A stretch of 40,928 nt of DNA from Snowella sp. (lineage in GTDB: Bacteria; Cyanobacteriota; Cyanobacteriia; Cyanobacteriales; Microcystaceae): positions 1-40,928 of the forward strand of contig QBMS01000023.1 in assembly GCA_003249095.1 (NCBI GenBank). Direction: 5' to 3'. The notes beneath the pieces are model-generated. The model was not told the DNA's origin, ran no database searches, and saw nothing but the letters and a program-made list of their open reading frames with translations. Both the position numbers and the translations under genes were made by a program. Of the stretch, positions 11,096 through 21,113 are shown one piece after another. Each line of letters begins with the position of its first letter. The first letter of the stretch is position 1.

Positions 11096-12091
11096 ATGCA
11101 GGTTCAATTTAAAGTTTCTCGCCAGAAGCCCAACGGTAATCCTTATTTCCAGACTTTTTTATTAGATGTTGAAGCGGGTATGACGATCCTGGATTGCCTG
11201 AATCAGATCAAATGGGAGCAAGATGGCAGTCTTGCCTTTAGAAAAAATTGTCGCAATACGATTTGTGGAAGTTGCAGTATTAAAATTAATGGACGTTCTG
11301 CCTTAGCGTGTAAGGAAAACGTGGGCAGTGAATTAAGACGATTTTCTCATTCATCGGGGGATGATATTCCTGAAATTGCGATCGCACCGATGGGCAATTT
11401 TACGGTTATGAAGGATTTAATTGTGGATATGCAGCCCTTTTGGGACAATTTGGAAAAGGTTGATCCCTACGTGAGTACCAATAGTAGAGAAATTCCCGAA
11501 CGAGAATTTTTACAAACTCCAGAAGAGCGGGAACAATTAAATGAAATGGGAAATTGCATTTTATGTGGAGCTTGCTACTCGGAATGTAATGCTAAATCGG
11601 TGAATCCCAGTTTTGTTGGGCCTCACGCTTTGGCGAAAGCACAACGATTAGTCGGAGATTCGCGGGATACCCAGACGGAAGAACGGTTAGAGCATTATAA
11701 CGAAGGCGTGGAAGGGGCTTGGGGCTGTACCCGTTGCTATCTCTGCAATACGGTCTGTCCGATGGAAGTGGCTCCGATGGATCAGATTAGTAAAATCAAG
11801 CAACAAATTTTAGACCGCAAGGATGCCCAGTCTAGTCGTTCCGTTCGTCACCGCAAAGTTCTGGTTGATCTGGTCAAAGCAGGGGGATGGGTTGATGAAC
11901 GTAAATTTGGCTTGTATGTGATGGGGAATTATTTCCGAGATTTAGCAGGGATTGCGAGTATTTTGCCCCTGGGATTACGGATGCTCAGTTTACGCAAGTT
12001 TCCCACTTCCTTTGAACCGTCCGAGGGAACCCAAGAAGTGCGATCGCTGATTGAAGCTGTCCAAGCAGAAACCCACAACAAAAAGCCCTAA
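11096..12091 (+). CDS. sdhB: Succinate dehydrogenase/fumarate reductase iron-sulfur subunit
   Basis: This 331-residue electron-transfer subunit has all cluster ligands. The 2Fe-2S ferredoxin domain has Cys52, Cys57, Cys60 and Cys72 (CRNTICGSC...C). The C-terminal domain has the CILCGACYSEC set (Cys154, 157, 160, 164) and CTRCYLCNTVCP (Cys211, 214, 217, 221) for the 4Fe-4S and 3Fe-4S clusters. Cys217 in the third motif is a normal ligand, so the quinone-proximal cluster may be 4Fe-4S-like. It carries electrons from the flavoprotein to the plastoquinone pool in cyanobacterial membranes. SdhA is not encoded nearby, which is usual for the phylum. Its stop overlaps the convergent egtB-like stop (12088-12091). 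Confidence 0.94.
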   Translation: MQVQFKVSRQKPNGNPYFQTFLLDVEAGMTILDCLNQIKWEQDGSLAFRKNCRNTICGSCSIKINGRSALACKENVGSELRRFSHSSGDDIPEIAIAPMGNFTVMKDLIVDMQPFWDNLEKVDPYVSTNSREIPEREFLQTPEEREQLNEMGNCILCGACYSECNAKSVNPSFVGPHALAKAQRLVGDSRDTQTEERLEHYNEGVEGAWGCTRCYLCNTVCPMEVAPMDQISKIKQQILDRKDAQSSRSVRHRKVLVDLVKAGGWVDERKFGLYVMGNYFRDLAGIASILPLGLRMLSLRKFPTSFEPSEGTQEVRSLIEAVQAETHNKKP

Positions 12092-13444: not shown

Positions 13445-14584
13445 TCAATTCGCCTTAATTGTTTGAGTTTCCTGAACGGTCGAAACCATTGCGGCCATTA
13501 ATTGTTCGGGAGAAACGCTAAAGGGTAAACGGTGAATATCTGAATCGGGCTGACAGGTTGTCTCGGCGGCGTGTTGCAATTCGGCCAGGGTGATTTGACT
13601 TAAACCCAGATCATTCAAACTTTTCGGTAAACCAATTTCGCCATAAAATTTGAGCAATTGTTGACGAGAAGTGAGGGCCAATTGATTTCCTGCAATCATT
13701 TCCTCTAGGCGTAACTGGACTAAAATTCCGTAGGCAACTTTTTCTCCGTGTAAAATATGGTGGGCGGCGGGAATATGGGTCAAACCATTATGGACGGCAT
13801 GGGCTGCAACAGTTCGACAATTTGCGCCACCGAGTCCTCCGATGACTCCTGCGAGTAAAACGGTTGCATCGACCACTTCTTTCCAGGTTTGGCCGCCTGG
13901 TTCTTGCAATGCGGCGACGGATTTTTGTAAGAGTAAATCCCGCAATACCCTCGCCTGTTGGACAGCCGCAATGGTTAGGGTATCGCTAGAATGACCACTA
14001 CTCACCGAGGCTTCGTACCATTTGGCGATCGCGTCTCCGATACCTGTAACGAGGGTGCGCTGGGGAGCTAATTGGATTAGGTCATAGTCGAGAATGAGGA
14101 GATCGGGACAGTGGGGAAGGGGAACATCGTATTGAAAGGCCCCTGCATCGCTATAAACATTGGATAATCCTGTCCAGGCCGCACAGGTCGCGCCAGAGGT
14201 GGGAATAGTAACGATGGGTAATTGGCAACGGTAGGCGACTAATTTGGCTGTGTCGAGGGCCTTACCGCCACCGACCCCAATAATAAAATCAGCCTGATGT
14301 TGCTGGACAGCGGTTTGTAATTTTGCGAGGGAATTTTCTGAACAATCGGGGGTATAACATTCTTCTTCGGCTGTCAATTCTTGGGACTGAAAAACCCTTG
14401 CTAAGGGAGATTTAACGACGGCTAAGGTTTGTTTTCCGCCAATAACGAGGGGGCGTTTCCCAAAAGAGGCGATCGCATTTCCTGAAGAAGCCAGACTTCC
14501 GCGCAGAACTTGGGTCGGCGCAATACTGAGTACGGACAATTGGGAAGCAACTTTTGAAGGATGTTTAGCAATTTTTGACGGCAT
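13445..14584 (-). CDS. Iron-containing alcohol/glycerol dehydrogenase family protein
   Basis: This 379-residue NAD(P)-dependent group III dehydrogenase is of the GldA type. The nucleotide-binding half shows FIIGVGGGKALDTAK and IPTSGATCAAWTGLSNVY. The metal-binding half supplies the Asp and two His ligands, visible as GIGDAIAKW and AHAVHNGLTHIPAAHHILHGEKVAYG. The length fits glycerol dehydrogenase (about 365-380). Members act on glycerol, related polyols or aldehydes; the cyanobacterial substrate is not established. The true start may lie further in, since the first 12 residues (MPSKIAKHPSKV) are polar and unlike the family. Confidence 0.86.
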   Translation of the reverse strand: MPSKIAKHPSKVASQLSVLSIAPTQVLRGSLASSGNAIASFGKRPLVIGGKQTLAVVKSPLARVFQSQELTAEEECYTPDCSENSLAKLQTAVQQHQADFIIGVGGGKALDTAKLVAYRCQLPIVTIPTSGATCAAWTGLSNVYSDAGAFQYDVPLPHCPDLLILDYDLIQLAPQRTLVTGIGDAIAKWYEASVSSGHSSDTLTIAAVQQARVLRDLLLQKSVAALQEPGGQTWKEVVDATVLLAGVIGGLGGANCRTVAAHAVHNGLTHIPAAHHILHGEKVAYGILVQLRLEEMIAGNQLALTSRQQLLKFYGEIGLPKSLNDLGLSQITLAELQHAAETTCQPDSDIHRLPFSVSPEQLMAAMVSTVQETQTIKAN

Positions 14585-14891
14585 CAGTCCAAATTTCCAA
14601 AAAAGATAATAATTTTCAAACAGATTAACAGAAAATTCCCCTAAATAGCAACATTCTGCTCAATCAGTACCCTACTTAAAAATAACACTGAAATTTAAGG
14701 AATGCAGGAAGATTTAAAAAAAAATTAGTCAAAAAAACAATAATACTTGTGAGAAATAGCCGATGTTATCCCAAAAACAAGATCACAAGCGAGAATAGAA
14801 AATATATAGATTAAAGAGTGTTTTTCATACAAATACCTAATGTTTTCGACCAGCTCTAATCTTGGCAAATATCGAAAAAAGAGAAAATATT
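14585..14891. promoter_or_regulatory. Divergent intergenic region GldA-like / phytochrome gene
   Basis: This spacer is about 307 bp and strongly AT-rich. It separates divergently transcribed genes, so it should contain both promoters. No operator palindrome or RNA was recognised. Confidence 0.35.
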
Positions 14892-17492
14892 ATGTCGTTA
14901 TCTGCTAGTTTTTCGGAAAAATTTCTTTATAAAATTATTCATCTGATTCAACAGGATTCTGATTTTTCTGGGATTTTACAGACGATCGCTGAACAAACCC
15001 GTAATTTTCTGGCGGTTGATCGCGTCAAAATCTATCAATTTAGCGAAGATGGCAGTGGTCAGGTGATTGCCGAATCGATTTTCAAGCATCGTTTACCCTC
15101 TCTTTTGGGATTACATTTTCCTGCCAGCGATATTCCTACCCAGACAAGGGAAGAATGGTTGGCCAAACGTCAAAGTGTGATGATTGATGTTTCTACCCAA
15201 CGAAAATCCTTCCATCAGAGCGATGGTTCTCAAGTTTCCCCCTCCGTTAATTCAGCCGATTTATCCCATTCTCGCTATATTCCTGTTGATCCTTGCCATA
15301 TTCAATATCTTTTAGCGATGGGGGTGCTGTCTTCCGTGAGTCTTCCCATTTTTTACCAAGATGCTCTCTGGGGATTGATCGCCATTCATCACAGCCAACC
15401 CCGACGTTTTTCTGGGCAGGAATTAGAAAGCTTGGAATTACTCAGCCAAGAAGTGACCCTCGTGATCGCCCAATCTATCCTCACCGCTCAAGTCCGACAC
15501 CAGAGTTATCAAGAATCAATCCTGGCGCACATTAGTGACCTGCTGGGCCAATCTTCTCCCACCGCAGAGATGTGGCAGCAGGTTTTACAAATCAGCCTGG
15601 AAAGCCTAAAGGCCGACGGAGCGCAACTTTATCTAGCGAAAGATTTCACGGGAGGAACGTCTCAATTTTATCAAGTCGGTTTACAACCTGCGATCGCGTT
15701 TTTAGAGTCCCATCCCCTCTGGAAAAGTCTGATTAAAGGAAATTATCCCGAAAAATCAGTAGAAATAGAAGATGATTCTGATGGATTAATGCAAAAGTCG
15801 AACCGAGAAAACGCTTTTTTATCCCATTATGCGATCGCCGATCCCCTTCTTATTCCTCTTCGTCCAGCTTTTGCCGATTCTCCGATCCAATCCTTGCTGG
15901 TGATTCCCATTGGCCATTCTCAGTGGATGGGCTGCTTAATTCTTTTTCGTCAAGCGCAGGAATATCAAACCTCCTGGGCAGGCAAAAATGCCCAAGATCT
16001 CCGCAACACCTTCCCCAGACAGTCCTTTGAAGCTTGGATCGAAATTCAACGTCAAGTCCCTCACTGGTGTTCCCAGGAGCTAAAACTCGGTCAGGCGATC
16101 GCAACCCATCTTTACACCATCCTCACCCAACAATTCCTCACCGCCCTGATTCATCATCAAACCGCCTACGATTCCCTCACCCAATTACCGAACTGGATTA
16201 TTTTCAATCAGCGTTTAACCCTGGCCCTGCTGGAGATGGTTCACCTAGCCAAAATTGTCGGGGTACTGGTCATCTCCCTAGACCGATTTAAACGGGTCAA
16301 TGAAAATTTAGGCCATGAAGCAGGAAACAGTCTCCTCAAACAGGTAGCCTCCCGTTTACAAAACACATTAGGATTTTATGCTCCCTATCATCCCCTCCTT
16401 TCCCGTTGGCACGGCGATGTTTTTATCTTATTGCTCACCAACTTGAACAACACAAGGGAACTGGAAGAGGTTAGCCAAAACCTACTCGATAGTTTTCAAG
16501 AACTGTTTCAGGTAGAAAATCAATCCCTATACCTGACGGCGAGTATTGGCATTAGCCTGGCTCCCTACGATGGAGAAATCCCCAAATCTCTAGTAAAATA
16601 CGCCGAAGCCGCCCTAGCTCAAGCCAAATACCAAGGGAAGAATACCTATCAGTTTTATCATTCGCCGATGACCACCCAACCCATGAATCGATTTAGTTTG
16701 GAAACAGATCTACGTCGGGCCTTGGCACAGGATGAATTTTTAATCTATTATCAACCCCAAATTAATCTCAAAAATGGTCAATTAGTGGGTTTAGAAGCTC
16801 TTTTGCGGTGGTATCATCCCCAATTGGGTCTGGTTTCTCCCATTGATTTTATTCCTTTAGCGGAAGAAACGGGATTAATTATCGACATTGGCCGATGGGT
16901 ATTGAGGACGGCCTGTTCTGATTACCAACTTTGGCAAAACCAGCAAGATTTTACCCTGATTCTCAGTGTAAATTTATCCATACGACAGTTCCAGCATCCA
17001 GGGTTAACCCAGGATATTTTTCAGATTATTGAAGAAACAGGGATGAATCCCAACAAGTTGGAATTAGAAATCACCGAAAGTTGGATGATGCAAGATGTTC
17101 AAGGGGCGATCGCCATTTTAGAGCGATTAAATAAAACGGGAATCAGAATTGCGATTGATGATTTTGGGACGGGTTATTCTTCTTTGGGTAAACTCAAGTA
17201 TTTGCCCATTAATACCCTTAAAATTGACAAGTCTTTTATTGATGATTTGCTCCATCAAGGAACGAATCTGACGATTATTGAATGTATTATCAATTTAAGT
17301 AAGGGATTGAATCTCAACGTTATTGCCGAAGGAATCGAAACCCAAGAACAATTAGAAAAATTGCAGATCCTCGGTTGTGATTTGGGTCAGGGCTATTGGA
17401 TTAGTCCTCCGATTCCCTCCGATGAAATCATGACGTTTTTAGCAAGTCATCAAAGGAAAACCCCAAAAAAGGCAGACTTTTGCCTACCTTAA
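14892..17492 (+). CDS. Cph2-like knotless phytochrome with GGDEF and EAL domains
   Basis: This 866-residue protein has the following layout. A bilin-binding GAF domain (about 20-195) carries LGLHFPASDIP and DPCHIQYLLAMGV; Cys135-His136 is the canonical chromophore site. A PHY domain (about 205-420) carries the tongue motif PRQSFEAW at 375-382. GGDEF (about 430-595) has the signature degenerated to WHGDVF. EAL (about 605-855) has intact EALLRW, NLSIRQF, EITES, DDFGTGYSSL and AEGIET. It has no PAS domain or knot, so it is a group II phytochrome. Synechocystis Cph2 carries an extra C-terminal GAF-GGDEF, absent here. It probably hydrolyses c-di-GMP in response to red/far-red light. The start is ATG 14892; an in-frame TTG lies 30 bases earlier. 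It is seven bases from the convergent cphA stop. Confidence 0.9.
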   Translation: MSLSASFSEKFLYKIIHLIQQDSDFSGILQTIAEQTRNFLAVDRVKIYQFSEDGSGQVIAESIFKHRLPSLLGLHFPASDIPTQTREEWLAKRQSVMIDVSTQRKSFHQSDGSQVSPSVNSADLSHSRYIPVDPCHIQYLLAMGVLSSVSLPIFYQDALWGLIAIHHSQPRRFSGQELESLELLSQEVTLVIAQSILTAQVRHQSYQESILAHISDLLGQSSPTAEMWQQVLQISLESLKADGAQLYLAKDFTGGTSQFYQVGLQPAIAFLESHPLWKSLIKGNYPEKSVEIEDDSDGLMQKSNRENAFLSHYAIADPLLIPLRPAFADSPIQSLLVIPIGHSQWMGCLILFRQAQEYQTSWAGKNAQDLRNTFPRQSFEAWIEIQRQVPHWCSQELKLGQAIATHLYTILTQQFLTALIHHQTAYDSLTQLPNWIIFNQRLTLALLEMVHLAKIVGVLVISLDRFKRVNENLGHEAGNSLLKQVASRLQNTLGFYAPYHPLLSRWHGDVFILLLTNLNNTRELEEVSQNLLDSFQELFQVENQSLYLTASIGISLAPYDGEIPKSLVKYAEAALAQAKYQGKNTYQFYHSPMTTQPMNRFSLETDLRRALAQDEFLIYYQPQINLKNGQLVGLEALLRWYHPQLGLVSPIDFIPLAEETGLIIDIGRWVLRTACSDYQLWQNQQDFTLILSVNLSIRQFQHPGLTQDIFQIIEETGMNPNKLELEITESWMMQDVQGAIAILERLNKTGIRIAIDDFGTGYSSLGKLKYLPINTLKIDKSFIDDLLHQGTNLTIIECIINLSKGLNLNVIAEGIETQEQLEKLQILGCDLGQGYWISPPIPSDEIMTFLASHQRKTPKKADFCLP

Positions 17493-17498
17493 AACGCT

Positions 17499-20120
17499 TT
17501 AACCCACAGGATTATGTTTTTGAATATGGGCGATCGCGCGGCTGACACTTTCAGGGAAAATCACCACCAATCCCCCTGGTTCCACTTGAGTTAAGGCCGT
17601 TTCTAGGGCTTCCGTTTCATTTAAAATAATCTCGGTTGGAACATTGGCATTAGCTTGCATAACCCCTTTCAGGATAAAATCTGCCGCACTTCCCGATTCC
17701 CGACCCCGTTTATCATCATCTTCTTTGATAATAATGCGGTCAAAAACGCGTGAGGCAATTTCGCCTAATTCCATCAAATCTTCATCTCGGCGATCGCCAG
17801 GCCCACCGATAACCCCCAAACGTTGACCCTTCCAGTTACCGACAAAACCACCGATCGCTTCATAGCTGGCAGGATTATGGGCATAATCAACTAAAGCATG
17901 ATGAGTCCCCAAATTAAAGAGATTCATCCGTCCAGGCGTTTGATCTGCTGATAAAACAAAGGTTCTGAGACCTTGACGAATTAACTCAATATCAACCCCA
18001 TTCACAAAAGCCGCCAGAGAAGCCGCCAAGGCATTAGCAATCATAAAAGGAGCCATCCCTCCCATCGTCCCAGGCACATTGATCGCCTGTTCAATCCGTA
18101 ACGTCCACTTGCCCTCTAGAATCGAGAGATAGCCATCTTCGTACACCGCCGCTAGGCCATCTCGACGCATCTGATTAAGAATAATCGGATTTTCGGGATT
18201 CATGGAGAAATAGGCAACTTTTGCTTTAACGTTCTCCGCCATTGCCGCCACCAACGGATCATCCGCATTCAGAACCGCATAACCCTGGGCACTGACGACT
18301 TCTGCAACAACGGCTTTAACCTTGGCCATCTGCTCAATGGTGTTGATATCTCCTAAACCCAAGTGATCGGCGGCCACATTTAAAACCACGCCCACATCAC
18401 AGGTATCAAAGGCCAATCCAGAGCGTAAGATCCCTCCCCTAGCGGTTTCTAGGACAGCCACTTCAACGGTAGGATCTTTTAAAATAACGCTGGCACTGTA
18501 GGGCCCTGTATTATCGCCTTTTTCGACTAAGTATTCATTAATATAAATGGCATCGGTGGTGGTGTAACCCACGTTTTTTCCTGTTTGTCGGTAAATATGA
18601 GCCAATAAGCGCGTGGTAGTTGTTTTTCCATTAGTTCCTGTCACGGCCAAAATAGGAATTCGAGAAGGTTTTCCAGGGGGAAAAAGCATATCTAAGACAG
18701 GAGCGGCTACGTTGCGGGGCAACCCCCGACTGGGAGCAACGTGCATCCGAAAGCCAGGGGCCGCATTGACTTCAACGATGACACCATCGACATCTCGGAG
18801 GGGTTTGGTAATATCGGGGGAGACGACATCAATCCCCGCAATGTCTAGTCCAATCACCTTAGCGACCCTTTCCATTAACCAAATATTTTCGGGATGAATG
18901 TCATCGGTACGATCAACCGCAACGCCTCCCGTACTGAGATTGGCCGTTGCTCTGAGATAGGCAATATTTCCTTCTGGTAAAACGCTATCGAGTTTGTAAC
19001 CTTGACGGGCTAGGACATCTAGGGCAGTTTTGTCTAGGGTGATCTTGGTCAGGACATTGGCGTGGCCCTCTCCCCGTTTAGGGTCTTGGTTCGTAATTTT
19101 GATCAGTTCTTCAATGGTATTCTGTCCATCCCCAATCACATGGGCGGGAATTCTTTCGGCAACGGCGACGAGTTTACCGTTAATCACTAAAATGCGGTGG
19201 TCGGTTCCTCGGTAGAATCTTTCAACGATAATGGAACGACTTTTAGATTCTTTGGCGGCGAAATCGTAAGCTTCAACGGCATGATCCCAATCGTTGATAT
19301 CAATGGTAATGCCCCGACCATGATTACCGTCTAGGGGTTTTATGACGATGGGATAACCCCCTACATCGGCGATCGCATCTTCCAGGTCATCAAAATACTG
19401 AATGGTTGTCCCGCGAGGAACGGGAATTCCCGAATCTCGCAAAATGGTTTTAGTTCCTTCCTTATCGCAGGCAAGCTCAACACCCAAAATTCCCGAATTA
19501 GAACTCAGGGTTGCTTGAATCCGTTGTTGGTGAACCCCGTGACCGAGTTGCACCATTGACCGCGCACTCAATAGCATCCAGGGAATCTTACGGGCATCGG
19601 CTTCTGTGACAATGGTTTCCGTACTGGGGCCGAGGGAGGAACTAGCGTGTAAATCTCGTAAATCGGCTAAATCTCGTTCTAATTCTTCTAGGGGGTAGGT
19701 TCCCGTATCCACAAGGGATTGACACAATCTGACGGCGGATCGGCCTGCGTAGCGTCCTGCTTGCTCTTCTACATAATCATAAACAACGTTATAAACACCA
19801 GGGGTCGCCGTCTCACGGGTACGACCAAAACCTGCGGTCATTCCTGCCAATTCCTGAAGTTCTAGGGCAATGTGTTCAATAATATGGCCCATGTAGGTTC
19901 CTTCTTTCACCCGTTCTAGAAAGCCGCCCCGATGACCAGGAGAACAAAAATGTTCAATTAAACTGGGCAGAACACCGACTAAACCTTCGTAAAACCCAGG
20001 AATCTCATTGGAGGGTCTCTCGGCCAAATCCTCTAGGTCGAGACGCATAACAATCAGTTTTTTGTATCGAATACTCCAGTAATTGGGGCCACGCAAGGTG
20101 AGGGTTTTCAGAATTTTCAT
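17499..20120 (-). CDS. cphA: Cyanophycin synthetase
   Basis: This 873-residue enzyme builds the nitrogen reserve cyanophycin, a poly-aspartate backbone with arginine on each side chain, by ATP-dependent additions. Three regions are visible: the N domain (1-160, with GHIIEHIALELQE), the ATP-grasp domain that activates the backbone (about 200-480, with IVIKPLDGNHGRG near 260 and VEVNAAPGFRMH near 450), and the Mur-ligase-like domain for the other residue (P-loop VTGTNGKTTTT near 495, VDYAHNPASYEA near 735). Length and motifs match the CphA1 type. The upstream gene on the same strand is cphB, with a 126-bp gap, so make-and-break genes are adjacent. Confidence 0.98.
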   Translation of the reverse strand: MKILKTLTLRGPNYWSIRYKKLIVMRLDLEDLAERPSNEIPGFYEGLVGVLPSLIEHFCSPGHRGGFLERVKEGTYMGHIIEHIALELQELAGMTAGFGRTRETATPGVYNVVYDYVEEQAGRYAGRSAVRLCQSLVDTGTYPLEELERDLADLRDLHASSSLGPSTETIVTEADARKIPWMLLSARSMVQLGHGVHQQRIQATLSSNSGILGVELACDKEGTKTILRDSGIPVPRGTTIQYFDDLEDAIADVGGYPIVIKPLDGNHGRGITIDINDWDHAVEAYDFAAKESKSRSIIVERFYRGTDHRILVINGKLVAVAERIPAHVIGDGQNTIEELIKITNQDPKRGEGHANVLTKITLDKTALDVLARQGYKLDSVLPEGNIAYLRATANLSTGGVAVDRTDDIHPENIWLMERVAKVIGLDIAGIDVVSPDITKPLRDVDGVIVEVNAAPGFRMHVAPSRGLPRNVAAPVLDMLFPPGKPSRIPILAVTGTNGKTTTTRLLAHIYRQTGKNVGYTTTDAIYINEYLVEKGDNTGPYSASVILKDPTVEVAVLETARGGILRSGLAFDTCDVGVVLNVAADHLGLGDINTIEQMAKVKAVVAEVVSAQGYAVLNADDPLVAAMAENVKAKVAYFSMNPENPIILNQMRRDGLAAVYEDGYLSILEGKWTLRIEQAINVPGTMGGMAPFMIANALAASLAAFVNGVDIELIRQGLRTFVLSADQTPGRMNLFNLGTHHALVDYAHNPASYEAIGGFVGNWKGQRLGVIGGPGDRRDEDLMELGEIASRVFDRIIIKEDDDKRGRESGSAADFILKGVMQANANVPTEIILNETEALETALTQVEPGGLVVIFPESVSRAIAHIQKHNPVG

Positions 20121-20246
20121 GATTGCTATTAGCTTTTGATCCGCGTTGAGAAGCTCAGAATGGCACTAGTTATTGTCTATGGTGCGGTTGACACGAAACT
20201 GTTTATAGTGAACAATTTGCTTTTCGTTTTTTAGTGCATTAGTTCT

Positions 20247-21113
20247 TTAGGTTATCTTTTGGCTGGTCTTGGCGATCGCGATATTTTTATGAAGATGATA
20301 ACCATCGCCGTGAGACAAAATGTGGAGACGAAGATTGTGCAAGCTCAAGGGAGAATTCGGTTCGGAATCCGCCGCATTGGTGTAGGTCAACTCCCTAGCA
20401 TCCACAATGGTGACGGTTCCTTGACCAATGACCTGAATCAGACCATCCTGTTCAAACAGGGCGCAGGTGTCTTCATCAATGCCGATCGCCAATCTTTCGG
20501 TATGACCCGCAAAGGCACTCAATAGGCGGGCCATGCGGTTCCGATTATGGAAGTGTTGATCAACGATGATTTCAGGAAAAATACCGAGGCCCATCGCCAT
20601 GTCAACTAAAGCACGGTTGGGCCATTCTCCACTACTGCCCCCTGCGATCATGTGATGTCCCATGACTGCCGCTCCCGCACTGGTTCCCGCTAAGCTAATT
20701 TCTCCTTTTTTGACCCGTTGACGAATGCGTTCCATTAGGGGCGTATCGGCCAACAATCCACAGAGTCGGAGTTGATCCCCCCCCGTCATAAAAATTCCTG
20801 TGCAGTCTTCAATAATCTGTTGAAAATCGGGATCGGAACCCTGGATGCGATCGCGGATATCCAAAATATGGATGGATTTAGCCCCCATTTCCTCAAAAAT
20901 CTGTTTGTAGCGTTGACCAATCAGGGCAGGTTCCCGTGAAGCAGAAGGAATGATCGCAATCACTGCATCAGTACCGCCGGATCGACTCCAAAAAGTGTGC
21001 AGAATTTCGCGGCCATGGACTTTATCTTCCGCGCCGCCAATAATCATAACGGCCGTTTTGGTGGATGAAGGCATAGGATTTTCAGGAGATTGGGTCTCGA
21101 CTTGCAAGATCAT
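20247..21113 (-). CDS. cphB: Cyanophycinase
   Basis: This 288-residue serine exopeptidase of family S51 degrades cyanophycin to beta-Asp-Arg dipeptides. The nucleophile motif is GTSAGAAVMG (Ser145). IPSASREP, FMTGGDQLRLCGL, VDQHFHNRNRMARLL and GIDEDTCALF are the other conserved blocks. It is cytoplasmic and probably co-transcribed with cphA downstream. ATG 21113 was used; ATG 21074 is an alternative that would remove 13 poorly conserved residues. Its promoter region is shared with the divergent trmD. Confidence 0.97.
   Translation of the reverse strand: MILQVETQSPENPMPSSTKTAVMIIGGAEDKVHGREILHTFWSRSGGTDAVIAIIPSASREPALIGQRYKQIFEEMGAKSIHILDIRDRIQGSDPDFQQIIEDCTGIFMTGGDQLRLCGLLADTPLMERIRQRVKKGEISLAGTSAGAAVMGHHMIAGGSSGEWPNRALVDMAMGLGIFPEIIVDQHFHNRNRMARLLSAFAGHTERLAIGIDEDTCALFEQDGLIQVIGQGTVTIVDARELTYTNAADSEPNSPLSLHNLRLHILSHGDGYHLHKNIAIAKTSQKIT

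Follow-up and report, generated by a model that had tools for sequence, protein, structure and literature searches.

A Snowella cph2 gene that has probably lost its 3' third and retains a putative red/far-red-controlled c-di-GMP phosphodiesterase

The window analyzed here, that is, the whole stretch of 40,928 nucleotides of Snowella sp. contig QBMS01000023.1, carries on its forward strand (14892..17492) a cph2-type gene that lacks the C-terminal arm and encodes a GAF-PHY-GGDEF-EAL protein of 866 aa, with an ATG at 14892 and a stop codon ending at 17492. An in-frame TTG at 14862 is an alternative start that would add 10 aa. Upstream and divergent lies a gene of the iron-alcohol/glycerol dehydrogenase family (13445..14584, reverse strand), and downstream and convergent lies cphA, encoding cyanophycin synthetase (17499..20120, reverse strand). 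Only 6 bases separate the stop codons of cph2 and cphA, leaving no coding remnant of a C-terminal arm next door. A terminator-like hairpin on the cphA strand (17470..17485), recognized by consensus match only, falls inside the last cph2 codons and possibly marks the vicinity of the junction left by the inferred arm loss; two terminator-like sites occur in 401 bases, against 0.5 (sd 0.6) expected from shuffled sequences.

The cyanophycin synthetase and cyanophycinase genes (cphA and cphB) form a tandem at 17499-21113, convergent with cph2. Among 61 loci compared with this one, a cphB homologue was found beside cph2 in a single case (L067) and no cphA homologue was detected at E 1e-40, and the cyanophycin genes look like chance neighbours. 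In two genomes with full-length cph2 genes, G011 and G021, the genes downstream of cph2 also differ from the cphA of the window. The upstream dehydrogenase has a 70% identical counterpart at the full-length cph2 locus of G011, with position and orientation unchanged, while G021 has another gene at this position, so that gene order backs orthology with one genome only. An sdhB-like gene of the window (11096-12091) has homologues of 48-49% identity in three genomes (L043, L044, L062), where they follow cph2 at a distance of about 1.2 kb; the window copy lies on the other side of cph2, a discordant finding.

Pfam recognized in the protein a GAF domain (aa 26-190, 1.1e-20), a PHY domain (335-414, 4.3e-8, 33.1 bits for a cut-off of 27), a GGDEF domain (425-584, 1.3e-38) and an EAL domain (606-840, 9.2e-77). 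Nothing was called after the EAL domain, in agreement with the initial annotation, which had described a short Cph2-like knotless phytochrome without the C-terminal GAF-GGDEF arm of Cph2, and no PAS domain was called before the GAF domain, which starts near the N-terminus. The bilin-binding GAF domain (14967..15461, forward strand) contains the sequence PASDIP at aa 77-82 and the pair C135-H136 (15294..15299), the predicted thioether attachment site for phycocyanobilin, whose presence was borne out by alignment. The PHY domain spans 15504..16145 (approximately aa 205-418, with bounds set by hand) and includes the tongue (15975..16043) with WAG (362-364), PRQSF (375-379) and WIE (382-384), so that the tongue motif proposed earlier, PRQSFEAW, is indeed in place up to W382. 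The pocket and tongue residues kept comprise C135-H136, D80 of DIP, W362, P375, R376, S378 and W382. With a GAF-PHY sensor lacking PAS, a Cys-His pair, DIP, PRxSF and the tongue tryptophans, the protein has the traits of a knotless (group II) phytochrome. The idea of a tryptophan switch has been put forward in this connection.

The solved structure closest in sequence to the photosensory part is that of Synechocystis Cph2 (4bwi, 2.2e-92). The structure prediction that the initial annotation had called for was run with AlphaFold2 and yielded a model (mean pLDDT 84.3, pTM 0.57) matching 4bwi_A with a target-normalised TM-score of 0.85 and an rmsd of 5.9 over 413 columns at 39% identity, which favours the knotless GAF-PHY assignment; the same model also matches solved EAL enzymes. 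Given the pTM of 0.57, the relative placement of the domains in the model is uncertain. A single gene of the host genome matches the bilin reductase family Fe_bilin_red and is most likely pcyA. The genome also harbors three PHY, nine EAL and 19 GGDEF matches (the GGDEF of the window included), and at E 1e-40 the GAF-PHY query hits no gene in it other than the one described here.

The GGDEF domain (16164..16643, aa 425-584) is degenerate. Its signature reads WHGDVF (16407-16424, aa 506-511), with H507 and V510 within it, in place of the GG(D/E)EF of active diguanylate cyclases, and AGN replaces AGD at 477-479. The resulting N479 (16326-16328) corresponds to D in all 12 long proteins of the Cph2 clade and in all 27 short proteins aligned. 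Prolines (P498 and P501) occupy what we take, by PleD spacing, to be the I-site. Taken together, the signature, both prolines and N479 make cyclase activity very unlikely. The EAL domain (16707..17411, aa 606-840) retains all of the eight metal and catalytic ligands examined (E635, N694, E726, D756, D757, K777, E813 and Q833), and the protein aligns in sequence with solved GGDEF-EAL enzymes. The eight ligands are conserved in the same 12 long and 27 short proteins, apart from a K at 813 in one long protein. The EAL signature regarded as complete in the initial annotation thus withstood an alignment in which a missing metal ligand could have surfaced, and c-di-GMP phosphodiesterase activity is likely, as judged from sequence. 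Of the 31 NCBIfam matches, 25 were listed, and none of these attained the cut-off of an equivalog model for a named GGDEF-EAL enzyme. The degenerate GGDEF recognized earlier is present, yet it does not set the protein apart from Cph2, being common to the Cph2 clade and, according to the review PMC5812497, found also in the N-terminal GGDEF of Synechocystis Cph2.

Relatives were collected with the GAF-PHY portion as query. Matches were found in 77 of 118 relatives (E 1e-20), 11 of 50 family members (E 1e-40), 161 of 388 genomes of the order (1e-60) and 19 of 386 genomes of the phylum (1e-75), the host genome being counted each time and the four sets overlapping. A scan of genome contigs gave one relative (41%), and a search of plasmids gave nothing at E 1e-100. 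From the matches listed, plus L004, 91 GAF-PHY-GGDEF-EAL proteins were compared, 24 of them long (with over 150 aa beyond the EAL match) and 67 short. A first set consisted of 50 proteins whose match began ahead of query residue 30 and ran past 820, GAF-PHY proteins with other outputs being dropped; a further set retained 41 of 42 proteins (from before 40 to beyond 820), with L161 omitted. Since the order and phylum searches scored four candidates per genome and lower-ranked matches were mostly left out, these 67 short and 24 long proteins are mostly the better-scoring ones and do not represent a census.

Within this better-scoring set, 13 of the 24 long proteins have WHGxxF; the motif is absent from the 67 other short ones, which carry WGGDEF (66/67) or WAGDEF (1/67); the remaining 11 long proteins have WGGDEF, WGDDEF or WGGDEL. 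The window protein is the sole short one with WHGxxF among the 91 relatives and itself. In a core tree built from the window protein with 23 long and 27 short relatives (51 rows), it groups with five full-length Cph2 proteins (SH-aLRT 100), then with 10 (99) and then with 12 (100), its sister being the G021 protein with a support of 88, where the mark for this tree is 95. Across a branch of support 100 from this clade lie all of the remaining short proteins (27) together with 11 long ones. These 11 lack WHGxxF and fall among the short proteins, indicating that length alone does not define the Cph2 clade. A FastTree of 92 rows likewise recovered a group of 13 long proteins and the window protein (94), with the same sister pair at 96. 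Forcing the window protein to join 14 short proteins instead of 12 long ones cost 160 log-likelihood units and was rejected (p-AU 1.03e-6), in a quick tree of 27 rows that used 14 of the 27 short rows and for which the clade was picked after the first tree had been seen; in this reduced tree the long L040 was drawn beside the short proteins, which cuts the other way.

By descent from the full-length clade and by its WHGxxF first GGDEF, the protein belongs to the Cph2 orthologue group, and it falls outside Cph2 sensu stricto, defined by six domains, as it is devoid of the C-terminal blue/green CBCR GAF and the active second GGDEF. Grouping as it does with full-length Cph2 and not with ordinary short proteins, it appears to have lost its arm, and the most likely reading of the sequence comparisons is a true Cph2 from which the CBCR-GGDEF arm was secondarily lost. 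What is new here is this ancestry, i.e. a short protein derived from Cph2; short knotless GGDEF-EAL phytochromes themselves are common.

The arms of the orthologues compared are about 390-430 aa long; identity to the G021 arm is 55-60% for 11 other members of the clade and 53% for L125. With G021 included, RYGGEEF is present in 12/12 arms, Cys-His in 11/12 and DPCF in 9/12. A search with the G021 arm gave 35 matches (E 1e-5) in the host genome, a draft of 4.6 Mb in 237 contigs rated 99.98% complete, and found no intact CBCR-GGDEF arm in it.

The best of these matches (39-40% identity, 245 bits) is a GAF-GGDEF protein of 638 aa on contig C111, which was rejected as a split-off arm. Its GAF domain lacks Cys-His, its C-terminal extension differs, and a tree of 16 of the 23 arms (300-460 aa) and nine other proteins leaves it out of the arm group (94/99, not starred). 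Several rows of this tree are long-branched, which leaves the exact place of the C111 protein unsure, and only its exclusion from the arm group was used. Its best match in G021, G011, G019 and G009 is the Cph2 arm itself, and in G055 it is matched over 19-638 by a 675-aa frame at 33% identity.

Considered together, these data are best accounted for, and in our view quite probably, by a cph2 gene that has lost its 3' third and now encodes a red/far-red-controlled phosphodiesterase without the blue-light cyclase. The ancestor would have been a six-domain Cph2, in which a CBCR-type GAF and a GGDEF that looks active came after GAF-PHY, a dead GGDEF and an EAL, and a deletion or rearrangement would have removed the arm and brought the cphA flank up against the EAL-coding end. 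In the protein that remains, C135 would carry phycocyanobilin and the tongue would mediate switching between a red- and a far-red-absorbing state. The PHY helix and the non-catalytic GGDEF would presumably relay the signal to an EAL domain that would hydrolyse c-di-GMP. As for the sign of the response, our guess, hardly better than even, is that red light (the Pfr state) raises phosphodiesterase activity. We hold it somewhat the better bet that a natural loss left a single-colour red/far-red phosphodiesterase in place of a two-colour Cph2 whose outputs opposed each other. If so, blue light would no longer raise c-di-GMP through this protein, and a living lineage would expose the red/far-red control of the EAL domain on its own.

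The alternative that fares best is compatible with this reading. Degenerate GGDEF domains can act as GTP-binding allosteric activators of EAL domains, and the dead GGDEF might be of this kind, with light as a modulator. Its retained fold (1.3e-38), together with D464 and N470, speaks for such a role, while H507, V510 and N479 alter positions that are kept by the WGGDEF relatives; we regard it as a tentative option.

It is improbable that the gene is a decaying remnant which, after loss of the arm, is heading towards inactivation without a light-controlled function. The end branch of the window protein is longer than that of its sister G021 (0.61 vs 0.35 in the core tree), which could reflect relaxed selection; N479 departs from a position that is D in every long-clade and short protein aligned; and the identity to the sister over the GGDEF domain is 61%, compared with 67% between the G021 and G011 proteins. 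Against decay, the reading frame runs uninterrupted for 866 codons, none of the eight EAL ligands or of the pocket residues checked is altered, the EAL identity to the sister (67%) is the highest of 10 pairs compared, and it is the armed sister that has R for H136 and S for the proline of DIP.

Less probable still is an assembly artefact, in which the arm would exist in the strain and two regions would have been misjoined at about 17.49 kb. With its 237 contigs the assembly is of draft quality, and the neighbourhood departs from those of G011 and G021 exactly at the end of the gene. Yet the stretch 17380-17600 (221 bases) has a single match in the host genome, and no direct or inverted repeat of at least 12 bases occurs within 17300-17620, which makes a repeat-driven assembly error unlikely; moreover, the reading frame ends cleanly, cphA is whole, and the arm search described above recovered no intact copy elsewhere. 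No second member of the genus was present among the 50 family genomes, so that the probable arm loss has a single draft assembly behind it. An ordinary short knotless GGDEF-EAL phytochrome that never had an arm and whose GGDEF decayed independently is scarcely credible, for although 67 other armless examples make this architecture common, both trees place the protein among full-length Cph2, the AU test rejects the alternative, WHGxxF is otherwise confined to long proteins in the set compared, and the upstream neighbour is common to one long cph2 (G011).

The reading as a Cph2 without its arm can be set against what is described for Synechocystis PCC 6803, whose Cph2 (Sll0821) is outside the aligned set and whose domains and degenerate GGDEF were taken from PMC5812497. 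Synechocystis Cph2 and full-length orthologues resemble the window protein in their GAF-PHY sensor, intact EAL and place in the tree, with WHGxxF in the first GGDEF of the orthologues compared, and differ by the CBCR GAF and second GGDEF. According to the literature, the C-terminal arm of Cph2 is a blue-light cyclase that inhibits motility (PMC5812497, PMC7690835), flocculation in blue light needs Cph2 (PMC6755745), and the function of the red/far-red sensor is poorly understood (PMC5812497). A GAF-GAF-GGDEF-EAL part of Cph2, expressed in Synechocystis, is reported to counteract elevated cellular c-di-GMP, with its EAL active in the cells (Savakis et al. 2012, as cited in PMC5812497). This construct has the same four domains and dead GGDEF as the window protein, whereas the latter comes from a complete natural gene, shares 39% identity with 4bwi in the structural alignment and has N479 where the 12 long-clade proteins have D. 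It would thus offer a natural red/far-red half of Cph2 that is open to study without engineering. A table of PMC8846402 lists the Cph2 GAF-PHY as an inhibitor-type far-red input to a diguanylate cyclase and not to a phosphodiesterase, which departs from, and speaks against, the present reading. No report of a naturally armless Cph2 stood out in a literature search that had most subscription journals outside its scope.

Other light-linked c-di-GMP proteins are more distant. SesB and SesC share light-linked turnover, but their sensors are single GAF domains with phycoviolobilin (table of PMC8846402), and the model for Tlr1612, also a light-linked c-di-GMP enzyme, aligns over GGDEF-EAL only, with 362 bits for a cut-off of 1600. 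Short knotless GAF-PHY-GGDEF-EAL proteins such as L042 have the same domain order and length as the window protein, and are set apart from it by WGGDEF or WAGDEF in 67/67, by an RxxD I-site (A1 consensus) and by their place in the tree. For classification, this means that short knotless GGDEF-EAL phytochromes with an intact GGDEF are to be distinguished from a short protein derived from Cph2, WHGxxF separating both in the set compared.

Several other phytochromes of the set showed departures of their own. The Cph2 of G021 (L037:10396-14202), the sister, keeps its arm, has C-R for C-H, DIS for DIP and WVG for WAG, and its PHY domain goes uncalled by Pfam at E 1e-5; as read from these residues, its red/far-red sensor looks degraded, in a mirror image of the window protein. 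In three proteins of 1120-1174 aa (L057, L058, L092), the domain after GAF-PHY-GGDEF-EAL is a GAF that has DCCF and Cys-His, and a second GGDEF is missing (Pfam was run on L058 alone), a predicted bilin-type C-terminal GAF with no output domain behind it. Four proteins of about 1600 aa (L045, L086, L087, L091) have the GAF-GGDEF arm set off from the EAL by some 330 extra residues, and their first GGDEF reads WGDDEF. Three short knotless proteins (L079, L080, L083) lack the PR of PRxSF in the tongue (QWRSF or QLRAF), and two of them (L080, L083) have NIP in place of DIP. Finally, contig C234 of G000 (L002, L099) carries a 1040-aa frame with a PHY domain near a 334-aa gene that by eye encodes a response regulator with receiver and GGDEF domains.
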